Made by a program: the position numbers and the translations under genes. DNA of 31,177 nucleotides from a virus, in the IMG/VR virus record IMGVR_UViG_3300008267_000987, positions 1 to 31,177 of that record. One strand, written 5' to 3'. The notes under the pieces were generated by a model. The model was given only the letters and a program-made list of their open reading frames with translations. It ran no database searches and was not told the origin of the DNA. This document shows positions 11,641-22,087 of the stretch, piece after piece; positions within the stretch are counted from its first letter, which is position 1; each line of letters opens with the position of its first letter.

Positions 11641-12393
11641 ATGTTTTACGTTTACGTATACCGAGATCCACGCCCTTCCAAAAACAACCAACCTGTCTAT
11701 GTAGGAAAAGGCACAGGTGATCGTGACATATCCCATTGGTCACGAGGTTCGCACAACAAACCATTCCAAGACTTTATAGCCCACCTAAAACGTCGAGGTT
11801 TGATTGCCCTATGTCAGCGAGTGTTTGAAACCGAAAATGAGAAAGAAGCCTTTACTAAAGAGGTGGAACTAATCCAACTATATGGGCGTCGAGATTTAAA
11901 TACGGGCACATTGTTTAACAGAACCGACGGCGGGGAAGGCGCATCTGGGTATATAAAAAGCGATACGGAAAAGCAAATTGACATAAATAATTCTTTACTA
12001 AACTGGCAAGACCCTAAATACCGTGCCAAAGTCGTCGATGCACAAAAATTTGTACAAGGAACACCTGAAGCGCGAGCGATGAAAGCTGAGAACAGCGTTG
12101 CTACGTGGACTGATCCAGTAGTCAGGACTAAACGCCAGATGGGGATAAAGAAAGGGCGTAGCACTGATGTATCCAAAGCCAAGACCAGTAAGCAGGCTAA
12201 GGCGCAATGGGCAAATCCAGAATACGCTGCTAAACAAACAGCAAACAATCAAGAAATCGCAAATCGAGCGGAGGTTAAGGCAGCAAAAGCTGCGGCTAGT
12301 AAAGCACTGTGGGCAGACCCTGTCTGGAAAGCCAAGATGTTGGAAGCAAGAGCTGCTAAAAAAGCAGCGAAACTCCTTGCACAGCAATCCTAA
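11641..12393 (+). CDS. GIY-YIG homing endonuclease with four W-x-[DN]-P repeats
   Basis: The 250-aa protein has an N-terminal GIY-YIG nuclease: YVYVY (3-7), PVYVGKGTGDRD (18-29) with the conserved Gly and R28, a catalytic-type Glu in EAFTKEVELI (E74), and FNRTDGGEG (92-100), common in Seg-type free-standing endonucleases. The C-terminal half carries four DNA-binding-like repeats: WQDP, WTDP, WANP and WADP at 122, 156, 190 and 224, exactly 34 residues apart. The tail is Ala/Lys-rich. Such enzymes cut a site in an uninvaded genome and copy themselves in. The site AAGGAGA is strong. It looks intact. Confidence 0.88.
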   Translation: MFYVYVYRDPRPSKNNQPVYVGKGTGDRDISHWSRGSHNKPFQDFIAHLKRRGLIALCQRVFETENEKEAFTKEVELIQLYGRRDLNTGTLFNRTDGGEGASGYIKSDTEKQIDINNSLLNWQDPKYRAKVVDAQKFVQGTPEARAMKAENSVATWTDPVVRTKRQMGIKKGRSTDVSKAKTSKQAKAQWANPEYAAKQTANNQEIANRAEVKAAKAAASKALWADPVWKAKMLEARAAKKAAKLLAQQS

Positions 12394-14482: not shown

Positions 14483-14963
14483 TAAATATGGTAAAGCAAA
14501 TATTTTAGTTGGCATGTTGGAATGTTCTACTGATAATATTGCTTATGATCTTGAGCGTGGAATTATAAAGTGCTTACGCAGACAGGACGTACAGCTTACT
14601 AACTTCACTGATGGTGGGGAAGGGACATCCAACCCTACACCGGAAACTCGAAAGAGATTGTCAGAAGCCGCTAAAAAACGTGGGGTCTCAGCGGCATGTC
14701 ATCAGGCTCGCGCTATAGCAAAGACCGGCAAGCCATTGTCCGAGGAACAAAAGAAAAAACAATCTGAAGCAATGCGTGGTATTGTTTTTACAGAACAGCA
14801 TAAAGAAAATATTAGGGCTAGTGCTAAAAAGCGTGGGGTATCTCCAGAATTATTAGCAAAAGCTCATGCAGCGTCACGTGGTAGAGTGCAAACTGTTGAG
14901 GAGCGATTGAAACGTGGAGCCGCTATTAAAGCTGCGTTGGCTAAAAAGCGAGAAAAGCTATGA
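14451..14963 (+). pseudogene. Decayed GIY-YIG/NUMOD homing endonuclease, 5' truncated
   Basis: From a stop at 14448 the frame is open and reads KHQATVNKYGKANILVG, ECSTDNIAYDLERGIIK (with the E of the nuclease core) and NFTDGGEG. It then carries NUMOD3-like repeats (TPETRKRLSEAAKKRG; LSEEQKKKQSEAMRG; FTEQHKENIRASAKKRG). The N-terminal GIY and YIG strands are missing. The first ATG (14514) has no ribosome binding site. It appears to be the remnant of a second homing endonuclease, inactive as a nuclease. Its stop overlaps the adaptor start (ATGA), so it may survive as a link in translation. Confidence 0.75.
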
Positions 14964-16456: not shown

Positions 16457-17131
16457 ATGAACTACGCTGAACTCTCCGCTGCTATTCAGGCTTATTCGGA
16501 AAGCGATGAACCACTGTTCGTCGATAATATTCCTGTCTTTGTTAGGAATGCAGAGCAGCGTATCTATAACTCTGTTCAGCTCGCGTACCTGCGTAAGAAC
16601 GTTACTGGGTCAACAACGCCTAGCAATAAGTACTTGTCTACACCGCCTGACTTCTTGTCAGCATATTCAGTGGCAGTCGTTAAAGCCAACGGTGACTACG
16701 AGTACTTGCTAAACAAGGACGTGAACTTTATCCGTCAAGCGTATCCATCCGCAAGCGATGTTGGTCTGCCTAAGTACTACGCTATTTTTGGGCCGACTAC
16801 GACTGCGGACAACCCTCCTGCGTTGACAAACGAAATCTCGTTGATTCTTGGCCCGATGCCTGATGCGACATACCCAGTGGAGCTGCACTACTTCTTCTAC
16901 CCAGAGTCTATTGTGACTGCGGGTACGACTTGGTTGGGCGATAACTTTGACACAGTATTGTTGTATGGCGCAATGCGCGAGGCTTGTATTTTCCAGCGTC
17001 AAGAGCCTGATGTGGTTGCTAATTACGAGCAGAAATACCAAGAGGGTATGATCTTGCTCAAGCAGCTCGGAGACGGTAAGGAAAGGGGCGACGCATATAG
17101 GAACGGGCAAGCCCGTTATCCGGTGAAATAA
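16457..17131 (+). CDS. Head-to-tail adaptor-like protein 2 (224 aa)
   Basis: This protein starts MNYAELSAAIQAYSE and has IPVFVRNAEQRIYNSVQLAYLR, YLSTPPDFLSAYSVAV and PVELHYFFYPESI, then a C-terminal helical region (FDTVLLYGAMREACIF; YQEGMILLKQLG). This order is characteristic of the phage adaptor or tail-tubular-A type proteins (T7 gp11-like) that join portal and tail nozzle. It follows the preceding stop by 2 bp, and the next ATG follows its stop without a gap. Confidence 0.75.
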   Translation: MNYAELSAAIQAYSESDEPLFVDNIPVFVRNAEQRIYNSVQLAYLRKNVTGSTTPSNKYLSTPPDFLSAYSVAVVKANGDYEYLLNKDVNFIRQAYPSASDVGLPKYYAIFGPTTTADNPPALTNEISLILGPMPDATYPVELHYFFYPESIVTAGTTWLGDNFDTVLLYGAMREACIFQRQEPDVVANYEQKYQEGMILLKQLGDGKERGDAYRNGQARYPVK

Positions 17132-17542
17132 ATGGCGTTTACAGGCAATTTCACATGCAATGTGTTTAAGACGGGGCTGCTCAATGCTGACTTCGACTTT
17201 ACATCCGGTACGTTTTACATTGCGTTGTACACCAATGCGGCGACTCTTGACCAAAACACGACTGCCTACACAACGACTGGTGAGGTTGTAGCATCTGGTT
17301 ACACAGCGGGTGGAGAATTACTGACGCCTTCTGTTGCGGCTTTAGATGGTACGTCTTATGCTTCGTTTGCAAACGTCTCATGGAGCGCTGCCTTTACAGC
17401 TCGTGGTGCGTTAATTTATAAAGCCGGTGATAACGGTGCGGTGTGTGTACTGGATTTTGGTGCTGATCGTACATCGACCTCAACATTTACCGTACAGTTT
17501 CCCGCAGCAACCAATACTTCGGCAATTATTCGCATTAATTAA
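17132..17542 (+). CDS. Tail-associated beta protein (136 aa)
   Basis: The ATG at 17132 directly follows the adaptor stop. The sequence (FYIALYTNAATLDQNTTAYT, then GEVVASGYTAGGELL) is almost wholly beta with Thr/Ala/Gly/Ser, ending in TFTVQFPAATNTSAIIRIN. Such short beta-sandwich proteins are common in phage tail operons and serve as decoration or tail-spike attachment parts. No catalytic motif. The role is inferred from context. Confidence 0.6.
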   Translation: MAFTGNFTCNVFKTGLLNADFDFTSGTFYIALYTNAATLDQNTTAYTTTGEVVASGYTAGGELLTPSVAALDGTSYASFANVSWSAAFTARGALIYKAGDNGAVCVLDFGADRTSTSTFTVQFPAATNTSAIIRIN

Positions 17543-17552
17543 GGAGTTTTAA

Positions 17553-18128
17553 ATGTTACAAGTTAAAGCAAAAGCCGGAGAAGTTGTTGGTGCTTCGGTA
17601 GATCAGAATACCGGTGCCTCTGAATGCGCTCGTGGCGGTGGTGTCTATACCGTTCAGTGTATTGGTGCTGATGGTCAGTTGAAATGGGAAGCTTCAAGCC
17701 CTAACCTTGTGGTTAACCAAGGTCTAAAGGACATGAACGACAAGTACTTCTCAGGCTCAACCTACACAGCCACATGGTACTTAGGACTGATTACAGGCCC
17801 CGGCTCTGGTACAGTATTTGCAGCGGGCGACACGCTTGCCTCACACGCTGGCTGGACTGAGTTTACGGACTATTCTGGTAACCGTGGTGCGATTACATTT
17901 GGTGCAGCAACACTAGCTGATCCTTCAGTCATTACAAACGGTACTGCTGTGCAGTTCAACATCACGGGCGCAGGTGGTACGGTTGCTGGTGCCTTTTTGT
18001 GTAGCGTGGCAACAGGTACATCAGGAATTTTATTCTCTGAGTCAGACTTCCAGTCTCCCGGTGATCGTGCGGTAGTGTCGGGTGACGTCTTGAATGTCAC
18101 GTATTCCTTCTCCCTTGACGCTGCGTAA
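17553..18128 (+). CDS. Tail structural protein (191 aa)
   Basis: AAGGAG lies 7 bp upstream. The sequence has NLVVNQGLKDMNDKYFSGS, ATWYLGLITGPGSG and AGWTEFTDYSGNRGAI, a recurring virion-protein pattern in environmental tailed phages. It ends in GDVLNVTYSFSLDAA, a beta strand. It shares an overall plan with the preceding 136-aa protein (short beta domain with a C-terminal strand), so they may be related. A tail or neck decoration role is inferred. Confidence 0.6.
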   Translation: MLQVKAKAGEVVGASVDQNTGASECARGGGVYTVQCIGADGQLKWEASSPNLVVNQGLKDMNDKYFSGSTYTATWYLGLITGPGSGTVFAAGDTLASHAGWTEFTDYSGNRGAITFGAATLADPSVITNGTAVQFNITGAGGTVAGAFLCSVATGTSGILFSESDFQSPGDRAVVSGDVLNVTYSFSLDAA

Positions 18129-18137
18129 GGAATAGAA

Positions 18138-18317
18138 ATGGCTACTAAATTCATTAAAGATCAGGTTATTAAGGTCAACGCCGTTGTGCCACAAGGCCCG
18201 GTCAGAAAGCTTCGCATGGATGAGGATGGCAACTTCTTCTACATGATTGAGTGGATTGACGCCAATGGTCAGGTACAGTCTCGTTGGTTTGCTGAATCTG
18301 AATTGACAGAGGTTTAA
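18138..18317 (+). CDS. Unknown 59-aa SH3-like small protein
   Basis: A clear small gene with AAGGAATAG before the ATG. It reads MATKFIKDQVIKVNAVVPQG, then VRKLRMDEDGNFFYMIEWID and WFAESELTEV. The strand-turn pattern with a WF near the end resembles short SH3-barrel proteins of the YodC (DUF2158) kind, a weak resemblance. It sits between two structural genes. Function unknown. Confidence 0.65.
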   Translation: MATKFIKDQVIKVNAVVPQGPVRKLRMDEDGNFFYMIEWIDANGQVQSRWFAESELTEV

Positions 18318-18322
18318 ACGGT

Positions 18323-19234
18323 GTGTTTGCCGGATCACCTTTTGCTTCCGCCCCATTTGCCGCATTAAGCGGCAATAGCTTTTTTGTATTCATTCAAGAA
18401 AGCGCCACCGCCTCTGACTCCGTATCCGCTCTTGCTTCGTTTGTTTCGTCTATCAGCGAGACTTCAACTGCCTCGGATTCTGTATCATCCTTAGCCACGC
18501 TTCTGGCTAGTATCGCTGAGTCTGCAACAGGCTCTGATACGGTTGTCGCAAACTTTACCACTAACAATACGATTTCTGAGTCTGCGACTGGCAGTGATAC
18601 GGTATCGGCTGCCCAGAGTTTTTCTGTTGCAGTGCAAGAAATTGGTAGTATTTCAGACTTAACATCAGCGATTGTTGAGTTTGGTGGGGTCATTAGCGAG
18701 TCTAGTGTTGCAGCGGATTCTGTATCGGCGTTGGCAAGATTTGTAGTATCTATCCTTGAAACAAGCGCGGCTGCTGACTCAGTTACAGTTGCTCCCAGTA
18801 CGTTTAACGCTACAATTGGTGAGGCTGTGGTAGCCGCAGAAAGCGTATCTGCTGGTGTGTTGCTATTTGTAAACTTGCAAGAAAATGCCGCAGGCTCTGA
18901 TTCTGTACGTAGTAATACGGAGTTTGATGCAGCGGTTGCTGAGTTAGCTAGTGGATCGGCTTCTACGCAGGTTATTGTGCAGTTTGGAGCCTTGATTCAA
19001 GAACTTGGGATTGCGTCGGATAGTGTGCTGGCGCGGTTCTTGTGGGAACTTATCAATGACAGCCAAAGTGTTGCATGGCAAAATATAGGCAGTGGTGGCG
19101 GTTCGGCTTGGCAATCCATCGGGACTAACCAGAACGTTGCGTGGGGCAGCATTAACACAAGCGGTGATTCTGGCTGGGGTGTTATTGACAACACCGACGA
19201 TCCCGATTGGAACCTGATCGACAACGCACCTTAA
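18323..19234 (+). CDS. Two-array repeat protein, probable fiber (303 aa)
   Basis: The start is a GTG at 18323 (GAGG upstream); no ATG fits. After 23 residues, eleven tandem units of 20 residues (one of 21) fill 24-244, with pattern I-x-E-x(5)-D-S-V and small residues between. Residues 251-303 hold five 11-residue units with W at 252, 263, 274, 285 and 296, each W-x-x-I. Exact periods like these fit a beta-solenoid shaft and a second solenoid or lectin-like tip. It is likely a tail fiber or whisker. No known family is recognised. Confidence 0.6.
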   Translation: MFAGSPFASAPFAALSGNSFFVFIQESATASDSVSALASFVSSISETSTASDSVSSLATLLASIAESATGSDTVVANFTTNNTISESATGSDTVSAAQSFSVAVQEIGSISDLTSAIVEFGGVISESSVAADSVSALARFVVSILETSAAADSVTVAPSTFNATIGEAVVAAESVSAGVLLFVNLQENAAGSDSVRSNTEFDAAVAELASGSASTQVIVQFGALIQELGIASDSVLARFLWELINDSQSVAWQNIGSGGGSAWQSIGTNQNVAWGSINTSGDSGWGVIDNTDDPDWNLIDNAP

Positions 19235-19245
19235 AGGAAAAAAAC

Positions 19246-19746
19246 ATGGCACTTGTTGTCCGCGACCGAGTTAAATCGAGTACCACAACGACTGGTACGG
19301 GAACCATTACGCTTGGCGCTGCTGCCTCGGGGTTTCAGTCTTTCTCAGTTATTGGTGACGGCAACACAACGTATTACACCATTACAGACACAGTCACAGG
19401 CGTATGGGAAGTTGGCATCGGTACGTACACATCGTCTGGCACTACACTTTCTCGTGCGGTGGTCTTGGATTCGTCAAGCGGAGGTTCGCTGGTTAACTTC
19501 GTGGCTGGCAGTAAAGATGTGTTTGTGGTCTACCCTGCCGAACGTGCGGTATATCAAGACGAATCTACAGGCACAGCATACGCACCAATCTTTGCTTCAT
19601 CTAATGGCTTGATTGTCAACAACATGACTGTGAGCGCAAATTACACAATCCCAACAGGCTACAGCGCTTCGAGTGTTGGCCCAATAACTGTAGACTCCGG
19701 TGTAGCTGTAACTGTTGATCCCGGTTCAAGGTGGGTAATTCTATGA
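19246..19746 (+). CDS. Tail fiber-type protein (166 aa)
   Basis: The ATG at 19246 has AAAGGAAA upstream. It starts MALVVRDRVKSSTTTTGTGT. It has GFQSFSVIGDGNTTYYTI and WEVGIGTYTSSGTTLSRAVV segments that recur in phage fiber genes, and DVFVVYPAERAVYQD. The C-terminus is beta-rich. It is translationally coupled to the next fiber gene by ATGA. Likely a base or shaft element connecting the fiber to the tail; inferred from sequence type and order. Confidence 0.7.
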   Translation: MALVVRDRVKSSTTTTGTGTITLGAAASGFQSFSVIGDGNTTYYTITDTVTGVWEVGIGTYTSSGTTLSRAVVLDSSSGGSLVNFVAGSKDVFVVYPAERAVYQDESTGTAYAPIFASSNGLIVNNMTVSANYTIPTGYSASSVGPITVDSGVAVTVDPGSRWVIL

Positions 19747-20855
19747 GTATTATTCTTAAAACCCCAAGCAACGGTAGCGTCACGCTTGCTGAACAAGATA
19801 CCGCTAGTGATGTAGTTGTGACAATTCCTGCCACGACGGGTAATGCTGTTATTTCTACACCAGACCTTGCCTACTCGCCATTTATTGGCTTCCGTAACCG
19901 CATCATCAACGGTGCGATGGTTATAGATCAGAGGAACGCTGGTGCGGCGGTTACGTACACAAATTCTAATTCATACAATTTAGATCGCTACCTGACGGAT
20001 ATGAGTCCCAATGGATCTTTACAAATACAACAAGTTTCCGATGCGCCTGCGGGCTTTGTGTATTCTATGAAGGGGACGATATTAACCGCCACTGCCGGAT
20101 CAAGCGGGCAAGCTGCCTATCTTGCAAGGCATATTATTGAGGGCAACAATATTGCCGATTTTGGCTGGGGATCAGCCAATGCACAAACAGCTACTTTGTC
20201 TTTTTGGGCAAAAAGCAGCGTAACAGGAACTTTTTCCGTTGGTGTGGCAAATGGGGCTTTTAATAGAGGTTATGCCGCAACGTACACTATAAATGTTGCA
20301 AACACATGGGAGTTCAAGTCTCTAATAATCCCCGGTGATACTTCTGGAACATGGCTTACAACCAACGGTATTGGAATTCGTTTGTACTGGAATATTGGCA
20401 GCGGTTCGAGTTTTCTTGGAGCAGCAAATGTTTGGCAAGGCTCTGGGTTAATTGGAGCAACTGGCAGCACTTCAATTATTAACACATTAAATGCTACCTT
20501 CTACATCACCGGCGTCCAGCTAGAAAAAGGCTCGACTGCTACTCCGTTTGAGTTTAGAAGTATTGGTGATGAGTTTGCGCTTTGTCAGCGGTATTATGAG
20601 ACCTGCCCTTATGACATTTTGAATGTTGGATATGGCACTAGTGGACAGCCGTTTTACAAATATTCTTCGTTTAATACGGCTAAAAGAGCTGCGCCTACTG
20701 TGACATATACAAACGTGGGAGCAAGTGGATTTAATGGCGCATACGCTACAAACACGGCTCATATAAACGGTGTTTCATGGACAACAACATGCAATTTTAC
20801 TGGTGCAGGGACTTTATTTGCTGTGCCAATTTGGTTCGCAAATGCGGAGTTATAA
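19743..20855 (+). CDS. Tail fiber protein, first copy (370 aa)
   Basis: The start at 19743 overlaps the upstream stop by 4 bp. Residues about 40-60 hold [19 protein letters not shown], a common fiber module start. The middle (TATLSFWAKSSVTGTFSVGV; WEFKSLIIPGDTSGTW) is a carbohydrate-binding-like beta sandwich. Then come [20 protein letters not shown] and LCQRYYE, which precede a variable tip. A close relative follows at 21026. Receptor binding is inferred from the family type. Confidence 0.75.
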   Translation: MSIILKTPSNGSVTLAEQDTASDVVVTIPATTGNAVISTPDLAYSPFIGFRNRIINGAMVIDQRNAGAAVTYTNSNSYNLDRYLTDMSPNGSLQIQQVSDAPAGFVYSMKGTILTATAGSSGQAAYLARHIIEGNNIADFGWGSANAQTATLSFWAKSSVTGTFSVGVANGAFNRGYAATYTINVANTWEFKSLIIPGDTSGTWLTTNGIGIRLYWNIGSGSSFLGAANVWQGSGLIGATGSTSIINTLNATFYITGVQLEKGSTATPFEFRSIGDEFALCQRYYETCPYDILNVGYGTSGQPFYKYSSFNTAKRAAPTVTYTNVGASGFNGAYATNTAHINGVSWTTTCNFTGAGTLFAVPIWFANAEL

Positions 20856-21029
20856 ATGTATAAACTAATAAAAAACTTAATTACTGGTGAAATTGTTATC
20901 GTTCAGCGCCTATCCGACAACGCTTTTATCCCAATGGACGAAGCCAACACAGACTACCAAGCCTACCTAGCATGGCTTGCAGAAGGCAACACACCCTTGC
21001 CCGCAGATGAACAAGGAGCATCAGAATGA
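20856..21029 (+). CDS. 57-aa partner of fiber 1, fiber-assembly-like
   Basis: This short gene starts at the base after the fiber stop and reads [19 protein letters not shown] then [27 protein letters not shown] second copy (60 aa) follows fiber 2, with a block of about 60 bp that is nearly identical. Small proteins with DEANxDYQAYLxW ends follow fiber genes in many phages and resemble fiber-assembly chaperone fragments. It overlaps the next ATG by ATGA. Confidence 0.7.
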
Positions 21030-22087
21030 GCATTTCCTACGGTGGGACTAACATCACATTCCCCGATGCTTCTACGCAGAACACATCACCTAAGACTGGG
21101 TTTGTAAACAGAATCATCAACGGTGGCATGACGATTGACCAAAGGAATGCTGGTGCTGAAATTAATCCAGCAGTAAACGCTACTTATTATTTAGACCGCT
21201 GGGTGGTTGGTCAATTAGTAAGCGGAAAATTTAAAATTGGTCAAAACGCAGGCTCTGTAACACCACCTGCGGGGTTTACAAATTATTTAGGATGTACATC
21301 TTTATCTGCTTATTCTGTTGGCGCTGGAGAGTATCTGGGCGTCAGTCAAAAAATTGAGGGCTTTAATGTCGCTGATCTAGGATGGGGAACTGCTAATGCA
21401 CAGACAGTAACTTTGTCTTTTAAGGTGTATTCGAGTTTGACAGGAACATTCTCAGGTTCGATTCTAAATTCCGCATCAGACCGTTCGTATATTTTTTCTT
21501 ATTCGATTGCGTCAGCAAACACTTGGACTAATATTTCAGTAACGATTGCTGGTGACACTACAGGCACTTGGTTAAAAACAAACGGTACAGGTATAGAGGT
21601 GTATTTCAATCTTGGTTCAGGATCGGGATACAACAATACGGCTGGCGCATGGGCTGGTGCTGGTTATCGTGGTGTTACTGGTGGGGTATCCGTAGTCGGC
21701 ACAAACGGAGCAACCTTCTACATCACCGGAGTCCAACTAGAAAAAGGCTCGACCGCTACACCGTTTGAGTTTAGGAGTTACGGGCAAGAGTTGGAGTTGT
21801 GCCAAAGGTATTATGTAGGCGCAAATGGAGTTTCCTACTTTACTGCGGGTTATGACAGTGCTTATACCTCGATTAATACCGGAGGATTGTCGTGGGGTTA
21901 TCAAATGCGAACTACGCCCACCATTGTTATTGTTAGTGGTGGCATGGATGGGCATCACGCTGTTGCTCCAACTGTACGCACCGGGCCAACGTATTATGGC
22001 GTTGGGCTTCAGTTTAGTGGTAGCGGACTACGTACTAATGCAAATTGTTCAGCATATGTGACGTACACGCTTAGTGCGGAGCTATAA
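21026..22087 (+). CDS. Tail fiber protein, second copy (353 aa)
   Basis: This is a paralog of the 19743 fiber. It has [55 protein letters not shown], and then [20 protein letters not shown] and LCQRYYV. The first 20 residues ([17 protein letters not shown]) differ from copy 1 but resemble the start of the glycine-rich protein at 22270. The C-terminal about 80 residues are unlike copy 1. GGAG lies upstream in the 57-aa gene. Probably a receptor-binding fiber with a divergent tip. Confidence 0.75.

Follow-up and report, generated by a model that had tools for sequence, protein, structure and literature searches.

Architecture of the repeat protein

The window, by which we mean the whole 31,177-nucleotide stretch of viral DNA analysed here, carries on its plus strand (positions 18,323 to 19,234) a gene for a repeat protein of 303 amino acids. 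The GTG start is kept in relatives and is supported both by a Shine-Dalgarno-like AGAGG stretch on the same strand (18,308 to 18,312), recognized from sequence 10 bases before it, and by the homology of the relatives, which begins at the very same residue. The protein opens with a leader peptide of 21 residues, MFAGSPFASAPFAALSGNSFF (18,323 to 18,385), in which the pattern xFxxxxFxxxPFxxL is kept in relatives and which is a possible virion anchor. It is followed by a body of about 11 units of 20 residues (18,386 to 19,033; consensus xxIxExAxASDSVSAxxxFx), each with a predicted pair of beta-strands; in places, this array contains a one-residue insertion. A junction motif, ARFLWELINDSQ (19,031 to 19,066), leads over to the W-module (19,043 to 19,231), which comprises six W-x-x-I units of 11 residues, five of them full and the sixth partial, with tryptophans spaced by exactly 11 residues (W241, W252, W263, W274, W285 and W296).

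Both periods lie far beyond what shuffled sequences yield. In the body, BLOSUM autocorrelation has maxima at lags 20, 40 and 60 and reaches 1.02 at lag 20, where 2000 shuffles gave a mean of -0.35 (standard deviation 0.13, maximum 0.15). The C-terminal tail shows peaks at lags 11 and 22, with a value of 2.11 at lag 11, against a mean of -0.74 in the shuffles (standard deviation 0.35, maximum 0.47). An earlier sequence-only reading, which had described eleven 20-residue and five 11-residue repeats with conserved I-x-E...DSV and W-x-x-I positions, is confirmed, and the positions it named are right. One point needs amending: at the DNA level, the 60-bp units of the gene are only 28-62% identical to each other in pairwise comparison (mean 44%) and Tandem Repeats Finder, run on the window, did not report the array. 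The array is accordingly old and did not expand recently.

The gene resides in a tail-fibre module

All neighbours of the repeat gene in the window are encoded on the same, plus strand. Upstream lie the genes for a virion structural protein (phrog_2941; 16,457 to 17,131), a phrog_644 protein (17,132 to 17,542) and a phrog_8123 protein (17,553 to 18,128), which are syntenic in 115, 117 and 118, respectively, of the 138 relatives that have the window's body type. A gene for a 59-aa protein (18,138 to 18,317), syntenic in 56 relatives, directly precedes the repeat gene and its stop is located 5 bases before the GTG. The gene directly downstream (19,246 to 19,746) encodes a fibre-type protein starting with MALVVRDRVK, found at the same position in 89 of the 138 relatives with a median gap of 10 bp, and is followed by a gene for a tail fibre protein (phrog_4492; 19,743 to 20,855) and, farther downstream, by those for a second phrog_4492 fibre protein, a pectate-lyase-like protein and an S74-type fibre. 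The order phrog_2941, phrog_644, phrog_8123, repeat gene, fibre gene constitutes a collinear tail module that recurs in relatives, and the repeat gene is a member of this tail and fibre gene cluster.

The portal protein of the window phage is 40-42% identical to those of phages DSL-LC04, HTVC027P and Pag-Yong1, and its portal relatives comprise DSL-LC04, HTVC027P, Planktothrix phage Pag-Yong1 and Roseobacter phages CRP-901 and CRP-902. The latter two have structural modules in common with HTVC023P and HTVC027P (PMC10149686). Among cultured or complete relatives, tail or fibre genes occupy the equivalent place in HTVC027P (gp69, tail protein; gp70, tail collar), in CRP-902 (gp50, tail fibre) and in MW202675 (tail fibre), and the phrog_644 gene also adjoins the W-unit protein gene of DSL-LC04 and the repeat protein gene of HTVC027P. 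The window would accordingly come from an uncultured, aquatic tailed phage whose kin include pelagiphage HTVC027P and lake phage DSL-LC04. HTVC023P has the same module without the repeat gene, such that phrog_644 is followed by a fibre-type gene resembling the one at 19,246 in the window; the repeat gene is therefore not essential to the tail.

Three further features of the window deserve mention. The adjacent phrog_4492 fibre genes (19,743 to 20,855 and 21,026 to 22,087) have a 20-residue stretch in common and appear to be a tandem pair of paralogues. Two open reading frames inside the structural gene cluster (11,641 to 12,393 and 14,514 to 14,963) resemble, as judged by eye, homing endonucleases of the GIY-YIG/NUMOD type. 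Upstream of the structural genes, a 39-bp tandem repeat is present in 2.1 copies (1,583 to 1,663).

A large family with exchangeable bodies

A first scan of IMG/VR yielded 69 loci with identities of 28-100%. A C-terminal profile search of the same resource returned at least 599 matching stretches, 519 of which were confirmed among the matches listed, and three scans with W-unit patterns added many further loci. In all, IMG/VR contains hundreds of genes of this kind. Whole-protein identity among relatives falls to about 25-40% and the bodies diverge, whereas RFLWELIND in the junction is invariant in a 15-member tail alignment that includes distant members. The consensus of the units that follow is W-x-x-I-[DN]-D-S-Q-T-[PA]-[NG]. 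In two members (L192 and L213, minus strand), the spacing within the W-module alternates between 11 and 10 (11, 10, 11, 10, 11), which suggests that units may pair in some members of the family.

The same W-module also caps a second type of body, built from V-TGV-x-G-x-VG repeats, and the gene downstream then encodes an S74-type fibre (median gap 13 bp). Bodies of this type with W-units include two proteins annotated as 'hypothetical protein', WJZ48131.1 of DSL-LC04, a metagenome-assembled lake phage (PMC10611076), and, in degenerate form, gp68 of HTVC027P (QGZ17849.1). Like the window gene, both are encoded directly after a phrog_644 gene, and in both W-units end the repeat body, four in DSL-LC04 and two degenerate ones in HTVC027P gp68. 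They differ from the window protein, whose body is of the E...DSV type, by their V-TGV-x-G-x-VG repeats and a Trp-Gly-rich N-terminus. The capping of two different repeat bodies by one W-module, along with synteny with tail-fibre genes, supports that part of the sequence-only reading which assigned two modules to one fibre.

The sequence-only reading knew of no named family with this layout, and our searches agree. Pfam and NCBIfam hold no model that fits the repeat protein, stray Pfam matches being below the cut-off or plainly due to chance; no enzyme family was matched, and the weak PHROGs match (phrog_12240) is to a group of unknown function. Nor did we find a description of these 20-residue and W-unit repeats in the literature, and searches turned up neither mass-spectrometry nor cryo-EM data on any member. 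The family is thus not named in protein databases. INPHARED gave no match with the window protein; with relative L043 it returned DSL-LC04 and chiefly low-complexity matches to Natrialba phage PhiCh1, whose tail fibre, encoded in an invertible locus, likewise contains repeats (identity of about 33% within the repeats, E 1e-6). PhiCh1 is an archaeal virus, and the match is of low complexity and shows no W-module; the resemblance likely reflects convergence. A bacterial or prophage origin of the family was rejected, as searches of 84,980 genomes of bacteria and archaea by profile and by DNA pattern found no relative, which is weak negative evidence given the strictness of the patterns.

Body length changes by whole units

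In the 140 relatives whose start can be recognised, the size of the body ranges from roughly 4 to 36 units and is near-integer, so the repeat number is far from constant within the family. As expected of a beta-solenoid fibre, the units are of equal length and are gained and lost as wholes. The proteins of loci L044 and L049, whose upstream flanks are 98.7% identical, differ in length by exactly 20 residues; the additional 60 bases of L044 are a perfect (60/60) tandem copy of the adjacent body unit. This is a recent expansion. Metagenome assembly may err at perfect duplications, but assemblers usually collapse copies rather than add them. L044 resides on one contig with a second locus, L072. 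L036 exceeds L024 by exactly 100 residues, and the W-module changes in steps as well: exactly 22 residues of it that L023 has are missing from L068.

Pairs of 60-nt units that are at least 90% identical occur in 4 of 246 genes. Body length is constant between the window's nearest relatives, L002 to L015, in which position-matched units resemble each other far more than different units do (0.64 and 0.56, against 0.21 for different units), and unit turnover there is therefore slow. The proposal that repeats in the DNA alter the length of the fibre protein is supported by relatives, and not as a recent event in the window itself.

Predicted structure and comparison with known proteins

Two AlphaFold2 runs, based on 16 and 64 sequences, gave models of low confidence (mean pLDDT 50 and 59). 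Both show two strands per 20-residue unit along the body and leave the W-module without regular structure. When PDB entries from Foldseek's list were ranked with VIA-align, nearly all neighbours of the low-confidence model proved to be beta-solenoids or beta-helices: the CsgA fibril (Z 11.4 at an rmsd of 8.2 over 97 residues), SufD (Z 10.5, 3.1 Å over 142 residues), FHA (Z 9.1) and the tail fibre of Agrobacterium phage 7-7-1 (PDB 9rkv; Z 8.1, 3.2 Å over 136 residues). Foldseek alone found no match in the PDB at E <= 0.001, and against BFVD the first model mostly hit unnamed proteins of uncultured phages with poor superposition. On the strength of these models, the 20-residue body is likely a beta-solenoid. 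Of the two solenoids postulated from sequence, the first is thus retained as probable while the second finds no counterpart in the models; neither a globular fold nor a known enzyme domain emerged from models or family searches.

With CsgA of curli, the best structural neighbour of the low-confidence model, the body has units of about 20 residues in common, each with two short strands that in the window protein are predicted. The 22-residue Ser/Gln/Asn pattern of curlins is absent from the window protein, its consensus differs, no curlin Pfam model matches, and the context here is a phage tail, such that the protein is not a curlin by sequence. The tail fibre of phage 7-7-1 contains a solenoid-like part comparable with the predicted body; identity is 8%, and no common 20-residue sequence repeat or W-module is apparent. 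Tape measure proteins, such as that of Lactobacillus phage JNU_P10, also carry tryptophan every 11 residues, and position +3 is frequently aliphatic. Their 11-mers have extra hydrophobic positions and a helical look (e.g. WNGIVSTTEGI), whereas the loop of the window protein is polar (DDSQTP). We rejected kinship with them, since only the spacing is common, the protein has just 303 residues with polar DDSQTP loops and neither low-confidence model contains a helix.

Proposed function

We consider it reasonably probable that the protein is a spacer in the virion's tail fibre, namely a beta-solenoid whose length can evolve and whose cap is a W-repeat segment for docking or oligomerisation. The protein would be part of the tail-fibre module, with its short N-terminal peptide as an anchor. 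The two short strands of each 20-residue unit would stack into a beta-solenoid and form a rigid spacer. The rise of a beta-solenoid is about 0.48 nm per coil, which would give a spacer of about 5 nm in the window and of 2-17 nm over the family. The RFLWELIND junction and the W-x-x-I 11-mers may form a compact C-terminal segment that joins chains or docks onto a neighbouring fibre protein. Gain or loss of whole 60-bp units would then change the reach of the spacer, which is probably an adjustable-length part of the host-attachment apparatus.

A different division of labour is conceivable, in which the W-units themselves bind a carbohydrate or the cell envelope and the body only displays them. 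Regularly spaced aromatic residues, loops rich in D, N and Q and a varying number of units recall the logic of tryptophan-rich cell-wall-binding repeats, to which a faint PDB profile match exists. With an E value of 0.19 this match is not significant, the roughly 20-residue aromatic/Gly profile of cell-wall- and choline-binding repeats has no Pfam match in the protein, and the conservation of the W-module junction next to a diverging body is the opposite of the usual pattern in receptor-binding tips. We regard a binding protein as unlikely. Position after the genes for the virion protein phrog_2941 and for phrog_644, the latter also present in phages with long tails and in jumbo phages (Caulobacter phiCbK, for example), would suit a whisker-like decoration fibre of head or neck that is encoded near the tail genes and stands outside the tail fibre proper; the fibre genes directly downstream in most loci make this quite improbable. 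Least credible is an assembly or scaffold protein absent from finished virions, or a fibre chaperone acting in trans: the gene is missing in HTVC023P, but very variable, extended repeat bodies are unusual for chaperones and no chaperone family was matched.

The family is widespread in aquatic phages, large and unannotated, and consists of modular fibre-type proteins whose repeat bodies can be exchanged while the conserved W-module stays; the whole-unit length changes provide a natural series for relating fibre reach to host attachment. Cultured HTVC027P carries a distant member, which makes tests on virions possible.

Restricted numbers of W-units

Counted in register, the 343 distinct complete tails among the matches listed have two (24 tails), three (43), four (168), six (107) or twelve (1) W-units, and five or seven to eleven occur in none of them; this regularity was noticed after the fact, the tails are related by descent and the first profile search was biased towards tails with six units. 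Removal of redundancy at 70% left 215 tails with the same set of counts. A flexible recount produced one apparent five (L157), but its sixth tryptophan stands 12 residues on. A strictly even count, as seen in the first 71 tails (2, 4, 6 and 12), was refuted by the 43 tails with three units and by single-unit duplications in the DNA (L160, L113 and L206). As such duplications exist, a count of five should be reachable.

A tree of two neighbour genes implied at least 69 changes in count, but fibre genes recombine. Of the 58 independent pairs on it that differ in count, we therefore rely on the 16 whose bodies are orthologous: nine differ as 4/6, six as 3/4 and one as 2/6. The allowed counts 2, 3, 4, 6 and 12 are divisors of 12. 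It is a speculative and rather doubtful idea that, on assembly of the chains, their W-units complete a ring or prism of set size; this would restrict the number per chain, and the product of units per chain and number of chains could be 12. Were it true, a closure of 12 units would fit the 12-, 6- and 3-fold symmetry of phage portal and tail, and the 20-residue solenoid would be the freely variable part of the protein. The restricted counts thus represent a structural rule that can be tested.
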